Shown: in pieces, positions 2,710 to 26,833 of the stretch | Layout of the letters: each line of letters begins with the position of its first letter | Numbering within the stretch: position 1 is the first letter of the stretch | DNA from: Saprospirales bacterium GYS_P2D | GTDB lineage: Bacteria > Bacteroidota > Bacteroidia > Chitinophagales > Saprospiraceae | Assembly (NCBI GenBank): GCA_009833045.1 | Contig: WUUP01000001.1 | Coordinates: 985,586 to 1,049,585, forward strand | Length of the DNA: 64,000 nt | Direction of reading: 5' to 3' | Position numbers and translations under genes: made by a program | Notes under the pieces: generated by a model | Database searches by the model: none | What the model was told of the DNA's origin: nothing | What the model saw: only the letters and a program-made list of their open reading frames with translations

Positions 2710-3771
2710 CTAAAATAACTTGAGCTGTCTATCACGATATTGATAATAGAGCTCAGTATTGTATGCGGGCATCATCCGATCGGCGTAGTATCGCTCTCTG
2801 GCTATCTTCCCCTGTTGGCTGAGTATCTCTGCTATATTACCGTCTCCTCTCATTCTTTTGCCAAATCTGCTATCATTGAGCCGTCCGCCATGACAGCTCT
2901 CGATCTGATGGATCACTCTGTCATGCCGATCAGGATAGTTTTTGCGCAGCCAGTCTTGGAATATTTCTGCGATCTGCCCATTGAGCCGGACCACGATATG
3001 ATTAAACCGTCTCGCCCCTGCCGCTGCTCCACGCTCAGCGATATCAAAGAACTCCATGTCATTGATACTCGGGATCACTGGAGCAAACATCACACTCACA
3101 GGCACTCCTGCAGCTGATAGTCGCTCCACGACCTTCATTCGCTTTTGCCCAGAGGCGGCCCGGGGCTCCAGTCGCTGGCGGACCTCTTCATTCATAGAGG
3201 TGATCGAGACGGCGACATGCACGAGATTTTCTCCAGCCATCCGCTCCAGTAGATCTATATCTCGCAGGATCAGCGCACTCTTAGTGATGATGCCTACGGG
3301 ATGCCGATACTCCCAGAGTATCTCCAGCAGACGGCGAGTCAGCTTGTATTTTCGCTCTGCCGGCTGATAGCAGTCAGTATTACCCGATAGCATGATGGGC
3401 TTTGGCTCCCAGTTTTTATGAGTGATCTTCTTCTTGAGTAGATGGGGAGCAGATTCTTTGACGAGTATCTTTTGCTCAAACTCAATACCTGCACTATAAC
3501 CCCAGTAGGTATGACTATTGCGAGCATAGCAGTATACACAGCCATGCTCACAGCCCTGATAGGGATTCATGGAGTAGCCATGAGGGATATCGGGACTATC
3601 TACCTTATTGATGATCGTCTTTGGGTAGACAGATATATAGTCGGTCTTCTTTTGCTGGCGCATCTCATCCTCATCATGCCAGTGGAGCCCCGTATGATCA
3701 TAGTTATTAGTATCAAAAGGATTATTAGGATTGATTTGGGCACCTCGGCCTTGGATATATTCTTCGTTCAT
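2710..3771 (-). CDS. PA0069-family radical SAM protein
   Basis: 353 residues. The radical SAM cluster motif CxxxCxxC is at C74, C78 and C81 within QGCEHGCVYCYAR, the pattern of the PA0069/Rv2578c group, distant relatives of spore photoproduct lyase. Such proteins bind a 4Fe-4S cluster and S-adenosylmethionine; the substrate of this group is not established. The ATG begins one base after the TAA of the dnaE2-type gene, so the two are almost certainly translated from one message. That places it as the last gene of the mutagenesis block and suggests, by inference only, a role with damaged DNA. The gene end is followed by a long non-coding stretch. Confidence 0.85.
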   Translation of the reverse strand: MNEEYIQGRGAQINPNNPFDTNNYDHTGLHWHDEDEMRQQKKTDYISVYPKTIINKVDSPDIPHGYSMNPYQGCEHGCVYCYARNSHTYWGYSAGIEFEQKILVKESAPHLLKKKITHKNWEPKPIMLSGNTDCYQPAERKYKLTRRLLEILWEYRHPVGIITKSALILRDIDLLERMAGENLVHVAVSITSMNEEVRQRLEPRAASGQKRMKVVERLSAAGVPVSVMFAPVIPSINDMEFFDIAERGAAAGARRFNHIVVRLNGQIAEIFQDWLRKNYPDRHDRVIHQIESCHGGRLNDSRFGKRMRGDGNIAEILSQQGKIARERYYADRMMPAYNTELYYQYRDRQLKLF

Positions 3772-3772
3772 T

Positions 3773-6700
3773 TTATCTGGCTTTTAGGGTTTTGCGGCGA
3801 CGACTGCTAAACTGTCGCCCATTGATATTGTATGACTTCTCGTTAAACCTTGGGTCGGTGATATAGCCCAGCTTTTGCATAGCACTCACCTCCATCGTAT
3901 AAAATCCAAACTCCTGGACTACCTTGCCCGTGATCAGATACATACCCTTTCCCCGAAAGGGGTACTGTCGTGCGACTGGTGGAAAATGCACCGTATCAAT
4001 AAAATGGCCCTGCCGATCTATGAAAGTTCCAAAATTCATCCGATCACCTTTCTTAGTCTTCGTTTCCTTGACCGTGATCAAATAGCCGACCATGGATATC
4101 GTACGACCATCATAGCGCTCCATATCTCGAGCCATAATCTCAGAGCTCGGCTCCTCAGGGTCGATCAGCTCAAATGGGCTACATAGCGGAAATCCCAATA
4201 ACTCTATCTGATCAAAGGCCTCTTCATTTTGCTCCAGCTCGAGTGTCGGCAGCTGATATTCTTTTGGCTGTGGCCGAAATAGTCGAGCCTGCTCCACTTT
4301 GGGCTTCTGGGTCTTATTGAGTAGCTGATGGGCTTTCCAGAGTAGTTCTTTTTTGGACATACCGGTGAATCGGAAAGCATTGACCCGGATCAGTGTGCAG
4401 AGCTGCTCCAGCCCAATCCTCGTCCGCTCGACGAAATCGATCAGATCCGCATATACTCCTCTGAATCCTCGCTCCCTCACCATCCGATGCGCAAAGTCCG
4501 ACTCCACACCATGGACAAAGCCTAATCCTATATAGATATCTCGCCCCTTGATATAGCAGGTATAGTCACTGGTATTGACACAGGGAGCATGGATCGTAGC
4601 ACCACACATGCGAGCCTCATGGATATAAAGCTCCGGCCGATAAAATCCACCTCCATTATTGATCGTAGCGACCATATACTCGAGTGGATAGTGAGCCTTC
4701 AGATAGAGACTCTGATAGCTCTCTACGGCATAAGACGCCGAGTGCCCCTTAGCGAAAGCATAGCCAGCAAAGCTCTCGATCTGTCGCCAGACCTCCGAGG
4801 CCAGCTTGTCCGTGTAGCCTTTCTGCTTACAGTTGCTAAAAAATTTATCTCGGACTCGATCAAACTCCTCTCTCGAGCGATACTTACCCGACATGCCTCG
4901 GCGCAGCACATCGGCCTCGCCCAGCGTCAGTCCAGCGAAGTAGTGCGCCACCTTGATCACATCCTCCTGATAGACCATGATGCCATAGGTGTCAGGCATG
5001 ATATCCCAGAGCACAGGATGGGCATCCCGCCTCCGCTCCGGCTGCCGCTCTCGGATGATATACTCCCGCATCATACCTGACTGTGCCACACCAGGGCGTA
5101 TGATCGAGCTGGCTGCTACGAGTCCGAGATAGTGATCTACCCGTAGCTTGCGCAAGAGCATCCGCATCGCAGGCGACTCTACATAAAAGCAGCCTATGGC
5201 CTTACCTTCTCGCAGTAGCTCCTTGACTCGCTCATCCTGTTTAAATCGCTTGAGGTCATGGATATCGATCGGCTCATCGGTAGGATTGTTTTCTCGGACT
5301 AGACGGATACCATCTTTGATCTTCGCCAGTCCTCGCTGACCCAGTATGTCAAACTTGTACAGGCCCACATCCTCCGCCACTACCATATCAAACTGTGTCG
5401 TAGGAAAACCCTTAGGCGGGACAAAGGTGGCGGTGTAGTACTGCAGCGGTCGCTCAGAGATCACGATACCTCCAGCATGTACGCTCAGGTGACTCGGTAG
5501 TCCCTGCAATAGACTGGCATACTTCAGCACCAGCTTAGACAGACTATCCAGCTGACTGAATACGGGCTTACCTCGAGTCAGCATATCGAGTTCTTCTTTG
5601 GGTAGTCCAAATACCTTACCCAGCTCTCGGACTGCCGCACGATACTGAAAGGTATTGTAAGTGGCCAGCAACGCTGTATGCGGAAAACGATCAAAGATAT
5701 ACTGCGTGACATCCTGCCGATCCTTCCATGAGAAGTCAATATCAAAGTCAGGAGGATTCTCCCGATAGAGATTGATGAATCGCTCAAAGTAGAGGTCCAG
5801 CTCGATAGGGTCCACATCAGTGATCTGCAGGAGGTAGGCCACGATACTATTGGCCCCACTACCTCGCCCTACGTAGAAATAACCTCGGGTCCGAGCGTAG
5901 CTCGTGATATCCCAATTGATCAAAAAATAAGAGACAAAGCCCTTTTCTATGATGATTTTAAGCTCTTTCTCGATACGAGTGACGATCTCATCGGTCGGCT
6001 CTGGGTACCGATATCGGAGATTGTCTCGACAGAGCCTACGCAGCAGTTTGACATCTTTCGTCACCGATCCTGTGAAGGTCTCTTGATTCTTTGGCCGGCT
6101 ACTATCAAAGTCAAACTCTATACTACAGCTATCCAGTAGTCGCTGGGTATTCTCGATGATCGCAGGCCAGCCATCATAGCTCTCGAGCAGCTCCTCTCGA
6201 GATAGATAGAGATCATCCGCCTGCGCATAGTCATCAGGCGTGACCTTAGTATATATCGTGTTGAGATCGATGGCTCGGAGGAGTTTGTGAAGATTATAAT
6301 CATCTCGATGCCTGAAGCTGCCAGAGCGCAGCATCACGAGACGATCCTCAGGTAGATCTGTACGCAGCTTGATACGATTGAGATCCGTATGGCGTATGCC
6401 GATATACTCATAGTCCAGCAGCTCTCGATCAGGCATCCTATCCAGCGGATAGATCACATAGCAGTGCTCCCATCGTGGCGGCTCTACTGGTAGCTCCCGC
6501 TGCTCCTGAGTCAGGTGCTCACTGAGATGCTCATTCATCTCCTCAAAGCCCTCATTATTGCGAGCGATAGCCACATAGTACTGATCGATCCCCTTACGGA
6601 AATCTATACCTATGATAGGCCGTATACCATACTTCGACGCCAGCCTCACGAAGTTGAGACAGCCAGAAGTATTATTAATATCTGTGAGTACTGCCTGCTC

Positions 6701-6790
6701 ATAGCCCAGACCCTGGTAGAGCTCGAGCAGCTCCTTAGGTCGGATCAGGCCATAGCGCAGGCTATAACAACTATGTGCGTTGAGATACAT
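3773..6790 (-). CDS. dnaE2: DnaE2-type (error-prone) DNA polymerase III alpha subunit
   Basis: 1005 residues from the ATG at 6790, giving MYLNAHSCYSLRYG, the usual start for this family; an upstream in-frame ATG at 6802 is less likely. Order of domains: PHP domain (about 1-210), polymerase core with GRGSGANS and the PDFDIDF catalytic aspartates (about 310-365), tandem HhH and OB-fold at the C-terminus. The PHP site reads TDINNTSG instead of the metal-binding TDHG of replicative DnaE, so proofreading/phosphoesterase metal binding is probably lost. It is shorter than replicative DnaE (about 1150 residues). With the adjacent Y-family polymerase it resembles the ImuB/DnaE2 mutasome used for damage-induced mutagenesis. 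No imuA homologue is visible nearby. Confidence 0.9.
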   Translation of the reverse strand: MYLNAHSCYSLRYGLIRPKELLELYQGLGYEQAVLTDINNTSGCLNFVRLASKYGIRPIIGIDFRKGIDQYYVAIARNNEGFEEMNEHLSEHLTQEQRELPVEPPRWEHCYVIYPLDRMPDRELLDYEYIGIRHTDLNRIKLRTDLPEDRLVMLRSGSFRHRDDYNLHKLLRAIDLNTIYTKVTPDDYAQADDLYLSREELLESYDGWPAIIENTQRLLDSCSIEFDFDSSRPKNQETFTGSVTKDVKLLRRLCRDNLRYRYPEPTDEIVTRIEKELKIIIEKGFVSYFLINWDITSYARTRGYFYVGRGSGANSIVAYLLQITDVDPIELDLYFERFINLYRENPPDFDIDFSWKDRQDVTQYIFDRFPHTALLATYNTFQYRAAVRELGKVFGLPKEELDMLTRGKPVFSQLDSLSKLVLKYASLLQGLPSHLSVHAGGIVISERPLQYYTATFVPPKGFPTTQFDMVVAEDVGLYKFDILGQRGLAKIKDGIRLVRENNPTDEPIDIHDLKRFKQDERVKELLREGKAIGCFYVESPAMRMLLRKLRVDHYLGLVAASSIIRPGVAQSGMMREYIIRERQPERRRDAHPVLWDIMPDTYGIMVYQEDVIKVAHYFAGLTLGEADVLRRGMSGKYRSREEFDRVRDKFFSNCKQKGYTDKLASEVWRQIESFAGYAFAKGHSASYAVESYQSLYLKAHYPLEYMVATINNGGGFYRPELYIHEARMCGATIHAPCVNTSDYTCYIKGRDIYIGLGFVHGVESDFAHRMVRERGFRGVYADLIDFVERTRIGLEQLCTLIRVNAFRFTGMSKKELLWKAHQLLNKTQKPKVEQARLFRPQPKEYQLPTLELEQNEEAFDQIELLGFPLCSPFELIDPEEPSSEIMARDMERYDGRTISMVGYLITVKETKTKKGDRMNFGTFIDRQGHFIDTVHFPPVARQYPFRGKGMYLITGKVVQEFGFYTMEVSAMQKLGYITDPRFNEKSYNINGRQFSSRRRKTLKAR

Positions 6791-6832
6791 GAATAGAATC
6801 ACTACTTTATTTAGAAAAAATGGCTTCGGTCA

Positions 6833-6916: not shown

Positions 6917-7771
6917 TTAAAATAGTGTTCCTTGATTATTGGGTGGTTTTGATTCGTTGTTCTTGCGTTTTCGGGCTTGTGTCATGCCCATACCTTCGAG
7001 CTTGAGATCCTGATATAGCTCATAGTCATACTCTGGATATATCCGTTCTCCCATTGGTTCGAGCAGTAACGGGTCTTTATTCTTAGAGCTTTTGATCCTC
7101 GGCGATATGGGATAGGCGTTCATCTCCTCAGCGGGATACGGCCGCAGCAGTGAGGTGACATCGCCGAGCGGCAGCTCTGGATCGAGCCACTCCTGCTCAT
7201 GCTGCTCGGAGAGGACAACCGGTGATCTATGATGGCCGATCTCTCGGAGCAGCGCATTGGCTGTGGTCGTGATGATCGCATAGCTACTTATGACCTCGCC
7301 AGTATCTTTATTCGTCCAGCTATCCCAGATGCCTGCCAGAGCGAATGGGCGCTCTCCATCTCGCATATATACCAGATAGGGTTTGCTGAGTCGCTCTTTC
7401 TTAGGCCCCTCGATGAAAGCATCTACTATCACCAGGCATCGCTTGCGACGTATCGTATGTCGAAAAGCTGGCTTATTGATGATGCCCATCGTGCCGTGAT
7501 ACTGAGGGCTATCCTCTTTATTATGATCGCCCTCCGATCGAGCATTGAATAAATACATCGGCTTCTTTGCCCAAAAGGGTGTCAAGCCAAACTTCAATAA
7601 CTGCAGCTGATCCGGAAACTCACTGGTGATCACCGGCGCATAGTCACCGATAGATACATTCGTATTGGGCCCAAAAGCGGCGGGATCAAATAATCCCTCG
7701 GGCATTGGCTTTGTCCGAAAGCGCTTTTCTATTTTTTTCAGTTTTGATATGACTACGTATCGTCCGCACAT
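6917..7771 (-). CDS. SOS response-associated peptidase (SRAP/HMCES/YedK family)
   Basis: 284 residues starting MCGRYV. Cys2 becomes N-terminal after Met removal and, in the family, forms a thiazolidine crosslink with abasic sites in single-stranded DNA, shielding them from error-prone processing. The conserved Asn (FNARSEG) and the His region (GHHRSPVVLS) that complete the SRAP active site are visible. It lies between the Y-family and DnaE2-type polymerases in the same orientation, a typical SOS context. It is followed by 126 bases before dnaE2, with a hairpin in the gap. Expression is probably damage-induced with its neighbours (inference). Confidence 0.93.
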   Translation of the reverse strand: MCGRYVVISKLKKIEKRFRTKPMPEGLFDPAAFGPNTNVSIGDYAPVITSEFPDQLQLLKFGLTPFWAKKPMYLFNARSEGDHNKEDSPQYHGTMGIINKPAFRHTIRRKRCLVIVDAFIEGPKKERLSKPYLVYMRDGERPFALAGIWDSWTNKDTGEVISSYAIITTTANALLREIGHHRSPVVLSEQHEQEWLDPELPLGDVTSLLRPYPAEEMNAYPISPRIKSSKNKDPLLLEPMGERIYPEYDYELYQDLKLEGMGMTQARKRKNNESKPPNNQGTLF

Positions 7772-7778
7772 AGATTAA

Positions 7779-8213
7779 GAGTATTGAGAGGTGAGTAAAG
7801 AGTATCGAGTCAGGAAATCGATTTGATTAATCCTCGAATCATTTTTGATATTTCTTCCGCTTGGGAGCGAAGTTGCTCAGTAACTTCCGCCTCTATATAA
7901 TTTAACCTCTCAGCGAGATATAGCATTGACTTCACTTCCGCTGCTGATCCTTTAGCGATATAGAGCATTCGGATAAAATCCTTATTAGTGCTACGCTCAA
8001 AGCCTTCTGCAATATTATTAGAAATCGATACTGTCGCTCGGCAGATCTGATCTTTGAAAGAAAAATCTTTTAACCCTCCGAATAACTGATATGACTGAAC
8101 AGCCAGCTCCTGAGCCTTCTGCCAGACTAATAGATCCTCAAACTTCCTGACTTTCATACTTCTCAATTTAATCAATAACTATCACACAACTCGCTACTCT
8201 GCTCTCAATACTC
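7779..8213. repeat. Unit bounded by perfect 12-bp inverted repeats around four-helix-bundle gene
   Basis: GAGTATTGAGAG at 7779-7790 and its exact reverse complement CTCTCAATACTC at 8202-8213 enclose the small four-helix-bundle gene. Both flanks are made of degenerate TACTC-like short repeats pointing in opposite directions. The unit sits between the SRAP and Y-family polymerase genes. This looks like an inserted cassette, although no target duplication was identified and the gene encodes no transposase. Confidence 0.55.
7810..8157 (-). CDS. Four-helix bundle protein (S23/intervening-sequence type)
   Basis: 115 residues from the ATG at 8157 (MKVRKFEDLLVWQKAQ); an upstream ATG at 8175 adds six residues. 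FEDLLVWQKA at the start and FSFKDQICRATVSISNNIAEG in the middle are diagnostic for the small S23-like four-helix bundle family, common in Bacteroidota genomes and in 23S rRNA intervening sequences. Proteins of this fold pentamerise in diversity-generating retroelements (Avd), but no reverse transcriptase is present here. The molecular role is unknown. It lies inside the inverted-repeat unit and interrupts the mutagenesis block. Confidence 0.85.
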   Translation of the reverse strand: MKVRKFEDLLVWQKAQELAVQSYQLFGGLKDFSFKDQICRATVSISNNIAEGFERSTNKDFIRMLYIAKGSAAEVKSMLYLAERLNYIEAEVTEQLRSQAEEISKMIRGLIKSIS

Positions 8214-8222
8214 GCTACTCCA

Positions 8223-9440
8223 TTACATATGCCTATGCGCCAGCAGTGGTGGTGGCTCTCCGGTGAAAGGATTACTGCGACCGATAGTGCGGGCATTCAT
8301 CCCTTCGGCACGCATGACGGCACGATCGCCAAAGCGATTTCGAATACGGTCCATGGCCTGATAGAGACTGATGATCTCCTCCGAATCTTCGAATAAATCC
8401 ATCTGATAATTGCCCCCGACCAGTCCACTGAATCGGACCCCGACCAACCGAACAAGCATCCGACGATTGTATAGTTTCTTGAATAGCTCTTTGACTTTAG
8501 GGATGATGACATGATCGGCAGAGGTGTAGGGCACTCGACTCTGCAGTGTCTGTGTCTGAAAGTCAGAATATCGTAGCTTAATCGTGATACAAGAGCACAG
8601 GCGCTCGCCTCGACGCAGCTGAAAAGCTAGATTCTCAGCCATAGCGACGAGGATCGACTGCAGCTTGGACACATCGATCGTATCCTTATCAAAAGTCCGC
8701 TCCGTAGAGATAGATTTTCGCTCATTGTAAGGGACCACAGGCGTATTATCGATGCCGTTAGATTTTTTCCAGATAGTGATACCATTCTTGCCAAAGACAT
8801 TCTCCATCATCTCGATCGGCATCTCCTGTATCGTCCCGATCTGCTTGAGCCCCATATGACAGAGCATCTGATAGGTCTTATCTCCGACCATCGGGATCTT
8901 ACGCACCGACAGTGGAGCGAGGAAAGGTTTTTCGCCACCCTGTACGACTTGTAGTTCGTTATTCGGTTTTGCTAATCCTGTAGCCACTTTGGATACGGTC
9001 TTATTGACCGATAGCCCAAAGGACAGTGGCAGGTGGGTCTCTTTGAGGATGCGCTGTCGCAGTTCACTCGCATACTTCATACAGCCAAAGTAACGGTCCA
9101 TGCCACTCAGGTCAAGATAAAATTCGTCAATGGAAGACTTCTCATAGACGGGGACATACTCCTTGATGATCTCTGTCACCATCTGCGAAAACTTGGTATA
9201 GGTGCCACTATTGCCTCGGATGATCACGGCGTCGGGGCAGAGCTGTCGGGCCAGCCGCATAGGCATCGCTGAGCGCACCCCAAAGGTCCTCGCCTCATAG
9301 CTACAGGACGCTACGACGCCTCGGTCGCTCGTGCCACCGATCAGTACGGGCCGCCCCTTTAGCCGACTATCGAGGAGCCGCTCACACGACACAAAAAAAG
9401 TGTCCAAGTCAATATGTACTATGCTCCGTTGTTGGGTCAT
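8223..9440 (-). CDS. Y-family DNA polymerase (DinB/UmuC-like)
   Basis: 405 residues from the ATG at 9440 (MTQQRSIVHIDLDTFF); a longer frame to 9548 enters the REP-like repeat and is unlikely. The catalytic carboxylates are in HIDLDTFF (D11, D13) and SSIDEFYLDL (about residues 102-110). A helix-hairpin-helix thumb (VRKIPMVGDK) and a little-finger domain follow. This is a translesion polymerase; whether it is catalytic DinB/UmuC or an ImuB-like adaptor cannot be fully settled, but the intact acidic residues favour an active enzyme. The genes on either side encode an S24-type repressor and an SRAP protein, so damage induction is likely. Confidence 0.93.
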   Translation of the reverse strand: MTQQRSIVHIDLDTFFVSCERLLDSRLKGRPVLIGGTSDRGVVASCSYEARTFGVRSAMPMRLARQLCPDAVIIRGNSGTYTKFSQMVTEIIKEYVPVYEKSSIDEFYLDLSGMDRYFGCMKYASELRQRILKETHLPLSFGLSVNKTVSKVATGLAKPNNELQVVQGGEKPFLAPLSVRKIPMVGDKTYQMLCHMGLKQIGTIQEMPIEMMENVFGKNGITIWKKSNGIDNTPVVPYNERKSISTERTFDKDTIDVSKLQSILVAMAENLAFQLRRGERLCSCITIKLRYSDFQTQTLQSRVPYTSADHVIIPKVKELFKKLYNRRMLVRLVGVRFSGLVGGNYQMDLFEDSEEIISLYQAMDRIRNRFGDRAVMRAEGMNARTIGRSNPFTGEPPPLLAHRHM

Positions 9441-9548
9441 ATTGGTCGTTTTATCATTTTCAGTTTTTCGGTTGGTATTGATACAGGTTTCAGTATTGGT
9501 GAGGCCGAGAGAGCGAGTCATGCAAAAGATGGATTCTCTCAAGGACAA

Positions 9549-9624: not shown

Positions 9625-10071
9625 CTACACATAGCGCTCATCATATGATATATCAAAATGCTCTAACAGACCCAGGTACTCTTCTTTAAAACTATACTTC
9701 TGATGATGAAGCTCTTGATCCTGTATATAGCGATACACTTTCGGCAATTGAGAATGACTATAAGTGAAAGCGCCATAACCCGATTGCCATTCAAAGCGCT
9801 CTCGTAGCCATTTCTTCTCATTGAGAAACTTAGACGAGTTACTTTTGATATCACGGACGAGCTCTGATAGGGCGACAGATGGCTTCATACCTAATAGAAT
9901 ATGTACATGATCTGCTACTCCATTTACGATGATTGATTTATGCCCTTTTGCAGAGACAATACCAGACACATAGCTGAACAGCTCACTTCTCCATTCAGAA
10001 GATAAAAGTGCTCGCCTACCCTTTACCGAAAAAATGATGTGTATATATAGCTGTGTATATGCCCCTGCCAT
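9625..10071 (-). CDS. REP-associated tyrosine transposase (IS200/IS605-like, Y1 HUH family)
   Basis: 148 residues from the ATG at 10071 (MAGAYTQLYIHI). The HUH motif is visible as DHVHILLG with H55 and H57, and the probable nucleophile is Y115 in YRYIQDQELHH. Length and motif order match single-domain TnpA-REP/RAYT proteins, which cut and join single-stranded DNA at REP hairpins. The gene is intact and flanked on both sides by inverted copies of CCCTGAAAGGG palindromes, its likely substrates. It separates the S24 repressor gene from the polymerase gene, so it seems to have entered an older operon. Confidence 0.9.
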   Translation of the reverse strand: MAGAYTQLYIHIIFSVKGRRALLSSEWRSELFSYVSGIVSAKGHKSIIVNGVADHVHILLGMKPSVALSELVRDIKSNSSKFLNEKKWLRERFEWQSGYGAFTYSHSQLPKVYRYIQDQELHHQKYSFKEEYLGLLEHFDISYDERYV

Positions 10072-10087
10072 AATCACTGATTTTATA

Positions 10088-10263: not shown

Positions 10264-11046
10264 CTACTTCTTCTTTAGGCTATCCACATCGGCTTTGAGC
10301 TGCATGACGATCTGACTGAGCTGCTGGATATCCGACTCCTGTCGCTCCTCCTGATCGGGTAGCGTAAAGCTGATATAGGCTAAACTCCGCCATGCCTCAA
10401 CCAGCTCATGTACTGGTAGCGTATAGGGCTCATAGAGTACATTATCCGACTTGAGCAGGAGCTCTCCCTCCTCCTCTCGCCAGACTCGTTTATAGACGAG
10501 GCCCTGTGACTGTGTGATGAGGATGTGACTCTCTCCCTCTTTCATCTCTTGCCAATTGTCCACATACTCACAGATCACATAGCTCCCATCAGGGATCGGC
10601 AGCATACTGTCTCCCTCTATCTGAAAGAGGCGATAGCTCTTATCCGGATATAGCTCTGGAATCGGCAGGGTGAATTTTGGCAAATCTCGTATATAATCAG
10701 GGTCAGCATATCCATGCGTATAGCCAGCACGTGCACTGACAGGTACGATGGATATCTGCTCCTGATCCTGTTGGTCTATTACGATGGGTAGGATGCGGAG
10801 TGTCTTACCAACCACGTCGACACTCGGCGCATCAATACCCTTTCTCAGGTCCTGATTAATCATCTGGTCTAAGGATAGCTCAAAGAGATAGGCCAGCTTT
10901 TGGATGGTCTCGATCTTGGGCTCTGCCCGCTGCTCCTCATAGGCACCTATGATGGATCGAGTCACACCGATACGCTCCGCCAGCTCCGCCTGCGTATATC
11001 CTTTTTGCTTCCTCAGATGCTTTATATTCTGATTGAGATAACTCAT
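10264..11046 (-). CDS. XRE-family repressor with S24 (LexA-like) autoprotease domain
   Basis: 260 residues. An N-terminal helix-turn-helix (about 6-60, LRKQKGYTQAELAERIGVTR) is followed by an S24 peptidase domain. The probable self-cleavage site is A107-G108 (SARAGY), the nucleophile Ser147 in EGDSMLP and the general base Lys186 in LVYKRVW. RecA-stimulated cleavage of such CI/LexA-type repressors derepresses damage genes. It is the first gene of the block holding the Y-family polymerase, SRAP and dnaE2 genes and is divergent from the oxidoreductase gene. Repeated TTAGC/GCTAA dyads in its upstream region are likely operators, which suggests autoregulation. A short coiled-coil-like tail ends the protein. 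Confidence 0.92.
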   Translation of the reverse strand: MSYLNQNIKHLRKQKGYTQAELAERIGVTRSIIGAYEEQRAEPKIETIQKLAYLFELSLDQMINQDLRKGIDAPSVDVVGKTLRILPIVIDQQDQEQISIVPVSARAGYTHGYADPDYIRDLPKFTLPIPELYPDKSYRLFQIEGDSMLPIPDGSYVICEYVDNWQEMKEGESHILITQSQGLVYKRVWREEEGELLLKSDNVLYEPYTLPVHELVEAWRSLAYISFTLPDQEERQESDIQQLSQIVMQLKADVDSLKKK

Positions 11047-11071
11047 AAGACGAATATATATCTAATTTTAT

Positions 11072-11113
11072 TAGCATGCTATTATTTTTAGCATTGAGCT
11101 AATTAAATTAGCT
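11072..11113. promoter_or_regulatory. Cluster of TTAGC/GCTAA dyads, probable operators of the S24 repressor
   Basis: Three overlapping or adjacent palindromes lie 25-70 bases upstream of the repressor ATG: TAGCATGCTA (11072-11081), TTAGCATTGAGCTAA (11088-11102) and GCTAATTAAATTAGC (11098-11112). All use the half-site TTAGC or its complement, two with five-base spacers. Position and dyad symmetry suggest binding sites for the dimeric XRE repressor. Confidence 0.6.
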
Positions 11114-11187
11114 TTTGGCCTAAGTCAATATTTGATTAATCATAAATCAAAAAGCTCAAACTTGTTTTTGCTCATATCTGGGATACC

Positions 11188-11210
11188 TTTAGCATGCCGA
11201 ACAGGCTAAA
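11188..11210. promoter_or_regulatory. Fourth TTTAGC...GCTAAA dyad in the divergent region
   Basis: TTTAGC and GCTAAA are separated by 11 bases, about 60 bases upstream of the oxidoreductase start at 11270. It shares half-sites with the cluster at 11072-11113, so the same repressor could control the divergent gene. Spacing differs, which lowers confidence. Confidence 0.4.
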
Positions 11211-11269
11211 AGAACGATCCGTTTTCACAAGCTTCTATCCGCCTATTTTGAATAGGTATAAAACACATC

Positions 11270-12289
11270 ATGATACAGCGACAAGTCTATCGCCTCAAAG
11301 CAGGTAATATTAACAGATTAAAAATCACATCAGAAGATCTGCCGGAGCCAGCAGAAGACGAAGTCCAAATAAAAATTCACGCCATAGGGCTCAACTTCGC
11401 CGATGTATTCGCCATATTAGGACTGTATAGTGCTACACCAGACGGGCCATTCATCCCTGGATTAGAGTATGCGGGTGAGATCATCGCCACTGGTAGTCAG
11501 GTGACAGCTCATCAGATCGGTGACCGTATCATGGGCGTCACACGATTTGGAGCCTATACGACTCATCTGAATATCAATCCCTCATATATACTGCCACTAC
11601 CTGATGACTGGTGCTATGCTGATGGGGCCTCCTACTTAGTACAAGTCCTCACGGCCTACTATGGACTCAGAACTCTGGGAAATTTGCAACCAAAACATAC
11701 TATACTGATACACTCTGCGGCTGGCGGCGTAGGTATCTGGGCCAATCGAATCTGCAAAGCCGTAGGCGCATATACCATTGGCACCATAGGAGGCGCACAA
11801 AAAATCAAGCTACTCGAAGCAGAAAAGTATAATGACTATATCGTCCGTGATCCTAAAACATTCAAAACTCAACTAAACACTAAATTACAAGGAAGAGGGC
11901 TGGATATCATCATGGAGTGCATAGGTGGAAAGGTCATGAAGATTGGATTTGAAGCATTAGCCCCGATGGGTAGGCATGTCGTATATGGCTCAGCGCACTA
12001 TGGTAATACCGCCAGCCGGCCGAACTACCTAAAACTAATCCCAAAATATCTCACTCGCCCACGACTGGATCCACAAAATATGATCAAACAAAACAAGTCT
12101 GTGATGGCTTTTAATCTGATCTATCTTTTTGAGAATGTAGATATAATGCATGAACTCCTGACAGAACTCAAGGCGCTACATCTCGGAAAACCAATCATCG
12201 GGCATCAATACAGCTACACAGAGCTCCCCAAGGCCATACGAGAGTTTCAATCTGGAAAGACAATGGGGAAGGTGATAATTAATGTCTAA
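11270..12289 (+). CDS. MDR-family quinone oxidoreductase / zinc-type alcohol dehydrogenase-like protein
   Basis: 339 residues of the medium-chain dehydrogenase/reductase superfamily. An N-terminal GroES-like domain (GLNFADVFAILGLY) is followed by a Rossmann fold with the NADPH-binding pattern SAAGGVGIWANRICKAVGA near residue 150. Zinc-ligand cysteines are not evident, so it fits the zinc-independent quinone reductase/VAT-1-like branch. It probably reduces quinones or reactive enones with NADPH in the cytoplasm. It is divergent from the S24 repressor gene, sharing an operator-rich intergenic region, and is followed about 60 bases later by the thioredoxin-like gene. Confidence 0.85.
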   Translation: MIQRQVYRLKAGNINRLKITSEDLPEPAEDEVQIKIHAIGLNFADVFAILGLYSATPDGPFIPGLEYAGEIIATGSQVTAHQIGDRIMGVTRFGAYTTHLNINPSYILPLPDDWCYADGASYLVQVLTAYYGLRTLGNLQPKHTILIHSAAGGVGIWANRICKAVGAYTIGTIGGAQKIKLLEAEKYNDYIVRDPKTFKTQLNTKLQGRGLDIIMECIGGKVMKIGFEALAPMGRHVVYGSAHYGNTASRPNYLKLIPKYLTRPRLDPQNMIKQNKSVMAFNLIYLFENVDIMHELLTELKALHLGKPIIGHQYSYTELPKAIREFQSGKTMGKVIINV

Positions 12290-26360: not shown

Positions 26361-26479
26361 ATGTTTGAGTTAACCTTTTTAGACAATAAAAAACATGAGA
26401 AACAAATGTAATGTTTACTCATCATATTATCTACTCGAGAGTCAAGACAACTCAAGATGTGCCAAAGTAAAAGCTTTGC

Positions 26480-26731
26480 TTATTTTTCTTCGCTGTATTT
26501 CAGGATCGATTTGATCACTCCCCCTTTCGGGAAAAACTGAACCTTAGGCAAGAGATTGAAGGCTTCTTTGAGAGATTGGTATTTCTCTCTCCACTCTGGA
26601 GTATGCTCTACAGCGTATTCAGTCTCGATATGCTCGAGCGCATGCATTTCATTGTAGAGATATCTAATAATTTGATTAGAAGTGTAGCAATGCGTCATAG
26701 GGTCGTGTTGGTCAGTAAAATTATTGCCCAT
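26480..26731 (-). CDS. Small conserved-looking protein, function unknown
   Basis: 83 residues with DPMTHCYTSNQIIRYLYNEM at the N-terminus, then an alpha-helical body with many charged residues. It resembles small Bacteroidota proteins of unknown role; no motif supports a function. It stands alone between recA and the aminotransferase gene. Confidence 0.6.
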   Translation of the reverse strand: MGNNFTDQHDPMTHCYTSNQIIRYLYNEMHALEHIETEYAVEHTPEWREKYQSLKEAFNLLPKVQFFPKGGVIKSILKYSEEK

Positions 26732-26833
26732 AAATAACTTTCATTTCTCAGTAATTATTGTATCAGAGTACCTCATCCACAAGGTAATCGGCAAAGATTG
26801 ATCTACCTAACAGCAGCATGGGTAATTGTCCCA

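Follow-up and report, generated by a model that had tools for sequence, protein, structure and literature searches.

We identified, in the 223-bp intergenic region (positions 11047-11269; 31% GC) of a 64,000-nucleotide stretch of the Saprospirales bacterium GYS_P2D genome (hereafter, the window), what is in all likelihood the autoregulatory promoter of a non-canonical LexA, that is, an S24 repressor with a phage-CI-type helix-turn-helix (HTH) domain, equipped with three CTAA-N5-TTAG operators. This reading draws on the motif, its layout and conservation, the catalytic residues of the repressor and the composition of the operon, all of which were observed in the analysis. Judging from the DNA, the array very probably comprises three predicted binding sites of a LexA-like DNA-damage repressor that would control itself and a set of error-prone polymerases.

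The CTAA-N5-TTAG array

The first-pass annotation had described four dyads in this region, TAGCATGCTA (11072-11081), TTAGCATTGAGCTAA (11088-11102), GCTAATTAAATTAGC (11098-11112) and TTTAGCATGCCGAACAGGCTAAA (11188-11210), all of which are present at these coordinates, and had taken them for operators that the neighbouring S24 repressor uses in a damage response. By our sequence comparisons, such a role in a damage-response operon is very probable for the array. The recognition sequence that the first-pass annotation proposed, TTAGC-N5-GCTAA, is out of register with the actual unit, CTAA-N5-TTAG, and consists of the facing half-sites of neighbouring copies, with TTAG of the middle copy opposite CTAA of the distal copy. 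The strongest repeat in the intergenic region is a family of 16-nt direct repeats that start at 11062, 11079 and 11099 (steps of 17 and 20 bp), and each copy corresponds to a CTAA-N5-TTAG palindrome, perfect in the first and third and with one mismatch in the second. These are the predicted proximal operator (11062-11074), located 16-28 bp before the S24 start codon, the weak middle operator (11079-11091), with its mismatch in the half-site that faces the proximal operator, and the distal operator (11099-11111); the first two had been missed in the earlier annotation. The 5-bp spacers differ in sequence among the sites. TTAGC and GCTAA together occur six times in the intergenic region, a total matched by 15 of 20,000 dinucleotide shuffles, and two perfect CTAA-N5-TTAG copies were found in none of 20,000 shuffles of the same region.

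Scanned across the genome, TTAGC-N5-GCTAA occurs at four places, one of them in the window intergenic region, and within 150 bp of the repressor start it is limited to 2 of 13 orthologous promoters, with no occurrence among 80 more distant homologues. CTAA-N5-TTAG is perfect in 12 of the 13 orthologous promoters (window included) and in 55 of the 80 named homologues from across Bacteroidota (the best 80 among 570, with a bias to close relatives and many Pedobacter near-copies), with no perfect site in the other 25; in homologues with a single site, that site is CTAA-N5-TTAG. The reversed-pattern control was matched in 0/13 and 0/80 within 150 bp and in 1/80 within 250 bp. The 13 orthologues, window included, combine 8 of 30 loci (≥53% identity) with five from a second genome sample, and two homologues at 44% identity were left out, one (G079) without a site and the other (G140) with several sites at other spacings.

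The layout of the array is also shared among the orthologues. A counterpart of the proximal site is present in all 13 promoters (eight perfect, three with one mismatch and two with two mismatches), and, counted from it, a second site (up to two mismatches allowed) is located at -17 in 13/13 and a third at -37 in 8/13, with any other offset from -60 to -13 represented in at most one genome each. The distal site is perfect in eight orthologues and lost in five. Wherever the distal site is perfect (eight promoters), the middle one is degenerate and deviates in its TTAG half. Across all 13 orthologues, the middle site retains CTAA in 12 and TTAG in two, the right half-site being other than TTAG in 11. 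One orthologue (G177) has only mismatched sites and is the sole one of the 13 without a perfect site. Among the 80 homologues, the order perfect, one-mismatch, perfect within 130 bp recurs in 31, with the mismatch in the right half in 30; the steps are mostly 39-43 and 23 bp (41 and 17 in L139). These 31 are nearly all from Sphingobacteriaceae, many of them near-copies, and thus represent few independent events.

We tentatively propose that selection has acted on the strong-weak-strong triple operator as an element of control: occupancy of the weak middle site would require cooperativity, and a leaderless SOS module limited to the mutasome would thereby respond to damage above a sharp threshold. 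Under this proposal, the logic would be kept in distant clades with differing spacing (20/17 in the window family and mostly 43/23 in those clades), and the module would travel with dnaE2 or the radical-SAM gene upon break-up of the operon.

Core promoter and predicted leaderless transcript

The S24 gene is preceded by a candidate promoter -7 box, TATATTCG (11051-11058, minus strand), which lies between the proximal operator and the ATG, 3 bp from the former and 4 bp from the latter. A TAnnTTYG box is found 2-4 bp past the proximal site in 13/13 orthologues (a gap of 3 in 10, of 2 in two and of 4 in one), compared with a shuffle mean of 0.34 and a maximum of 3 of 13, and the distance from the end of the box to the start codon is 4-8 bp in these promoters. 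This sequence is close to TAnnTTTG, reported as the -7 element of the Bacteroidetes sigma factor. In this layout, the proximal operator would lie inside the core promoter. A -33 promoter element was not identified in the S24 promoters.

In Flavobacterium psychrophilum, the -7 box is reported at -12 to -5, and the window box is located at exactly -12 to -5 counted from the S24 ATG; the transcript should therefore be leaderless, and we predict that it is leaderless or nearly so. Leaderless mRNAs are reported to be uncommon in the phylum, amounting to 5.5% in F. psychrophilum, and about 3.7% of the 5' UTRs of B. thetaiotaomicron are reported to be shorter than 10 nt.

The S24 repressor

The S24 gene (10264-11046, minus strand) encodes a 260-aa protein assigned to the non-canonical LexA type by profile matches, alignments and a structural model. 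The matches to HTH_3 (PF01381-type; E 5.5e-15) and Peptidase_S24 (E 4.8e-8) are both above the Pfam cut-off, and this is the sole S24 protein over that cut-off in the 99.35%-complete genome. Canonical LexA (winged HTH PF01726 fused to S24) was not matched in the genome, with PF01726 detected only below the cut-off and away from the S24 gene. The scissile Ala107-Gly108, Ser147 and Lys186 are invariant in 12/12 rows of the family alignment (window included) and in 32/32 rows across the phylum. The AlphaFold2 model (mean pLDDT 79, pTM 0.55) suggests five N-terminal helices that would form the HTH, a C-terminal domain rich in beta structure and a terminal helix spanning residues 239-259. Compared with VIA-align, model residues 96-228 are similar to LexA (3k2z_A; Z 14.2, 120 aligned, rmsd 2.3) and residues 1-66 to the P22 c2 repressor (2r1j_L; Z 11.7, 66 aligned, rmsd 1.7).

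The model also gave a structural match to lambda CI (3bdn_A). At OR1-OR3, lambda CI, with a CI-type HTH and an S24 domain, binds three unequal operators that overlap the promoter, as predicted here. Unlike lambda CI, the window system has no phage switch, shows a spacing of 17/20 bp and belongs to a chromosomal repair operon.

The non-canonical LexA proteins of Bacteroidetes have been divided into two groups, and CTAA-N5-TTAG is the gel-shift-tested site of one of these; in Pontibacter actiniarum, altering either half-site or the spacer length abolishes binding (PMC8565304). Mitomycin induction has been published for relatives (PMC8565304), two or more sites are reported in several promoters and a terminal helix is mentioned (Sanchez-Osuna et al. 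2021, PMC8565304). The available text of PMC8565304 contains no occurrence of 'cooperativ' or 'Saprospir', and among the titles and abstract openings returned by a literature search, we found no other paper naming a CTAA-N5-TTAG site. With this group, as described there, the window repressor shares an HTH_3-type N-terminal domain, an S24 C-terminal domain, the Ala-Gly and Ser-Lys residues, the terminal helix (239-259 in the model), a site before its own gene and control of error-prone polymerases, which in our case is indicated by position, namely, by the same-strand operon with dinB and dnaE2 and by arrays before moved dnaE2 genes. It differs in that its regulon apparently consists of mutasome genes only, without recA; a wide regulon including recA is reported as typical of several non-canonical LexA clades, without defining them (PMC8565304). 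The array itself, with three sites in steps of 17 and 20 bp abutting the -7 box, differs from most Sphingobacteriaceae promoters, with their steps of 23 and 39-43 bp. HdiR (Streptococcaceae) and UmuDAb (Moraxellaceae) are comparable by their description in PMC8565304, as non-LexA S24 repressors with a minimal error-prone-polymerase regulon, and belong to lineages other than that of the window repressor.

In a quick protein tree with weak deep forks, the window repressor falls outside a 19-row site-free clade (99*), among site-bearing rows that include Pontibacter, although not the assayed P. actiniarum protein. Orthologues are uncommon, with a match at E ≤1e-60 in 15 of 398 sampled family genomes; most of the others have more distant S24 proteins. 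S24 paralogues of the same family have no CTAA-N5-TTAG in their upstream regions (L032, L039, L042, L044 and L046). For the 20 rows denoted group B, the count of 0/20 for this motif holds by construction, the group being defined as the loci below 50% identity minus L030 and L035, which have perfect sites. CGA-N5-TCG is present within 150 bp in five of these 20 loci (shuffle mean 0.29, maximum 2) and is perhaps a further, diverged operator type; an earlier look for other palindromes in group B gave no clear winner.

Operon and relocated genes

Downstream of the S24 gene, on the same minus strand, are genes for an IS200/IS605-type Y1 transposase (9625-10077), the Y-family polymerase DinB (8223-9548), a four-helix 23S rRNA-intervening-sequence (IVP-type) protein (7810-8175), an SRAP/HMCES-type SOS-associated peptidase (6917-7771), a dnaE2-like error-prone polymerase III alpha (3773-6802) and a PA0069-family, SplB-like radical SAM protein (2710-3771). 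The S24 orthologue has dinB in its vicinity in 10 of the 11 relative contexts compared, dnaE2 in eight (one a fragment at a contig end), the SRAP gene in seven and the radical-SAM gene in five; the transposase, which in the window lies between the repressor and dinB, is present in none.

A dnaE2 gene was sought in 10 of the 13 genomes and is present in nine, in five of which (G317, G083, G267, G228 and G004) it is not downstream of the repressor. In three of these five, dnaE2 is preceded by a pair of sites spaced by 17 bp: in G317 and G083, the pair consists of a perfect and a one-mismatch copy, each followed by a TAnnTTYG box, and in G267, of two one-mismatch copies. The dnaE2 of G228 has an isolated one-mismatch copy only, and no site was found before that of G004. 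A perfect site of its own precedes the radical-SAM gene of G177. Short of experiment, these arrays before the relocated dnaE2 and radical-SAM genes are the best evidence that the array may control them.

Two of these genomes show further variation. In G004, the array-bearing repressor (L080) is followed by PDDEXK-like and RmuC-like genes, with no dinB, and dinB and dnaE2 cluster on a separate contig, close to another S24 gene (gene names assigned by eye). In G267 (L082:14789-14818; G267:C124:31561-31585, L230), in addition to the array before dnaE2, the repressor's own promoter region contains an opposite-strand site with a promoter box, so that this region may fire both ways.

Extent of the regulon

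Two perfect sites within 30 bp occur once in the genome, at the window array (reversed control, 0), and a search for the tight array that tolerated up to two mismatches likewise matched the window array only (reversed control, two matches on one strand). Genome-wide, neither the bare 8-base motif (73 vs 107 in the reversed control) nor the motif with A/T spacers (10 vs 10) is enriched. Six of the eight other A/T-spacer sites are in reading frames, one is between convergent gene ends and one is directly before a lipoprotein-like gene, with no recognisable repair gene downstream of any of the eight. No broader regulon was found in the genome, with part of the 73 bare-motif sites inspected; additional members with a single site may exist.

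Across the 13 genomes, 28 matches to a site-plus-box pattern were listed, of which eight are S24 promoters and two precede dnaE2; among the other 18, of which part were inspected in detail, no recurring repair gene was recognised, and the reversed control gave about as many matches in most relatives. One match in the GYS_P2D genome (L208:1501-1523) combines a perfect CTAA-N5-TTAG with a TATATTTG box immediately after it, and pheT (phenylalanyl-tRNA synthetase beta-like, named by eye) follows 62 bp downstream; we treated it as a chance occurrence because pheT is absent among the matches in 12 related genomes.

The earlier remark that clear dyads are missing upstream of recA holds, with only one-mismatch copies at 26370-26382, near the recA start, and 26667-26679, neither of which is present in two congeners. 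No array and no perfect site were found at recA in 13/13 genomes, on which ground recA was rejected as a regulon member. By eye, a TACATTTG box with no operator is common to the recA promoters of the window (26361-26833), the congeners and g83 genomes (L086-L092), which points to unregulated recA. The damage response is most likely autoregulated and confined to the mutasome.

The divergent neighbour of the S24 gene encodes a quinone oxidoreductase of the ADH family (11270-12289, plus strand), which the first-pass annotation had suggested as a regulon member, with the fourth dyad counted among the operators. This suggestion is not supported: of the 11 relative contexts, only those of the two congeners have the gene next to S24, so that the adjacency is confined to the window genus, and the fourth dyad, TTTAGC-N11-GCTAAA (11188-11210), departs from CTAA-N5-TTAG and has no counterpart in the 89- and 111-bp intergenic regions of the congeners. 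Its pattern, TTAG-N13-CTAA, was found in 0/13 and 0/80 promoters within 150 bp, the window's own copy lying just beyond that range. At least one inverted repeat of the same quality is present in 11.65% of 2,000 shuffles of 11120-11269, the real stretch holding three such register positions. On motif, conservation and chance, the fourth dyad was rejected as an operator. The distance from the operators to the oxidoreductase start is 171-208 bp in the window and 53-93 bp in the two congeners, where co-repression is plausible given this proximity; overall, we regard control of the oxidoreductase by the array as doubtful.

Proposed mechanism and alternatives

We propose that repressor dimers would occupy the three CTAA-N5-TTAG operators in the order strong, weak, strong. 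The proximal operator, just upstream of the -7 box within the core promoter, would block RNA polymerase, and the middle and distal operators would stabilise binding. Upon DNA damage, the Ser147-Lys186 dyad, triggered by RecA filaments, would cleave the Ala107-Gly108 bond and repressor levels would fall; the predicted leaderless transcript would then yield new repressor together with the products of dinB, the SRAP gene, dnaE2 and the radical-SAM gene. For the window protein, we infer binding, RecA-stimulated cleavage and cooperativity. Counted against the operator reading are the 25 of 80 homologues and G177 without a perfect site, the two homologues at 44% identity (G079 and G140), the location of the G004 repressor away from dinB and dnaE2, the absence of a site before the G004 dnaE2, the isolated copy before the G228 dnaE2, the failure to identify a -33 element and the genome-wide lack of enrichment of the bare motif.

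A repressor that reads TTAGC-N5-GCTAA, with the fourth dyad as a further operator adding the oxidoreductase to the regulon, would account for TTAGCATTGAGCTAA, which is indeed present, for the shared half-sites and for the plausible co-repression of the oxidoreductase in the two congeners (operators 53-93 bp from its start). We consider it very improbable, given the scarcity of TTAGC-N5-GCTAA (2/13 and 0/80) and of TTAG-N13-CTAA (0/13 and 0/80) within 150 bp, the CTAA-N5-TTAG form of the lone sites of homologues and the adjacency of the oxidoreductase in 2 of 11 relative contexts only; moreover, mutagenesis in a relative maps CTAA-N5-TTAG (PMC8565304). The phage-CI-like fold predicted for the HTH and the three operators, reminiscent of lambda OR, could also point to a resident or decayed prophage as the source of a CI-like repressor, with operators resembling SOS boxes by chance. 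To this possibility we give almost no credence, because the named flanking genes are dinB, SRAP, dnaE2 and the radical-SAM gene, an association that recurs in other genera (for dinB, 10 of 11 contexts), and the family has been described as a chromosomal SOS regulator (PMC8565304).

An improbable alternative is that the repressor has a wide SOS regulon, controlling recA and other repair genes via single or degenerate sites. The P. actiniarum homologue binds the recA promoter (PMC8565304), and there are the one-mismatch copies upstream of the window recA. However, recA has no array or perfect site in any of the 13 genomes, the one-mismatch copies are absent in the congeners, and none of the eight other A/T-spacer sites precedes a recognisable repair gene (with part of the 73 bare-motif sites inspected). 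The preferred reading thus remains an autoregulated operon with three CTAA-N5-TTAG operators.

Implications

These results fix the sequence that the damage repressor of the window lineage likely recognises and lead to a testable prediction, namely, that damage induces the mutagenesis operon only, and not recA. Sites of the CTAA-N5-TTAG type have already been published, so the point worth testing is the fixed strong-weak-strong layout in the window family. Unequal sites fixed against a predicted leaderless promoter would make it feasible to study how the strength and spacing of operators determine the threshold of induced mutagenesis.
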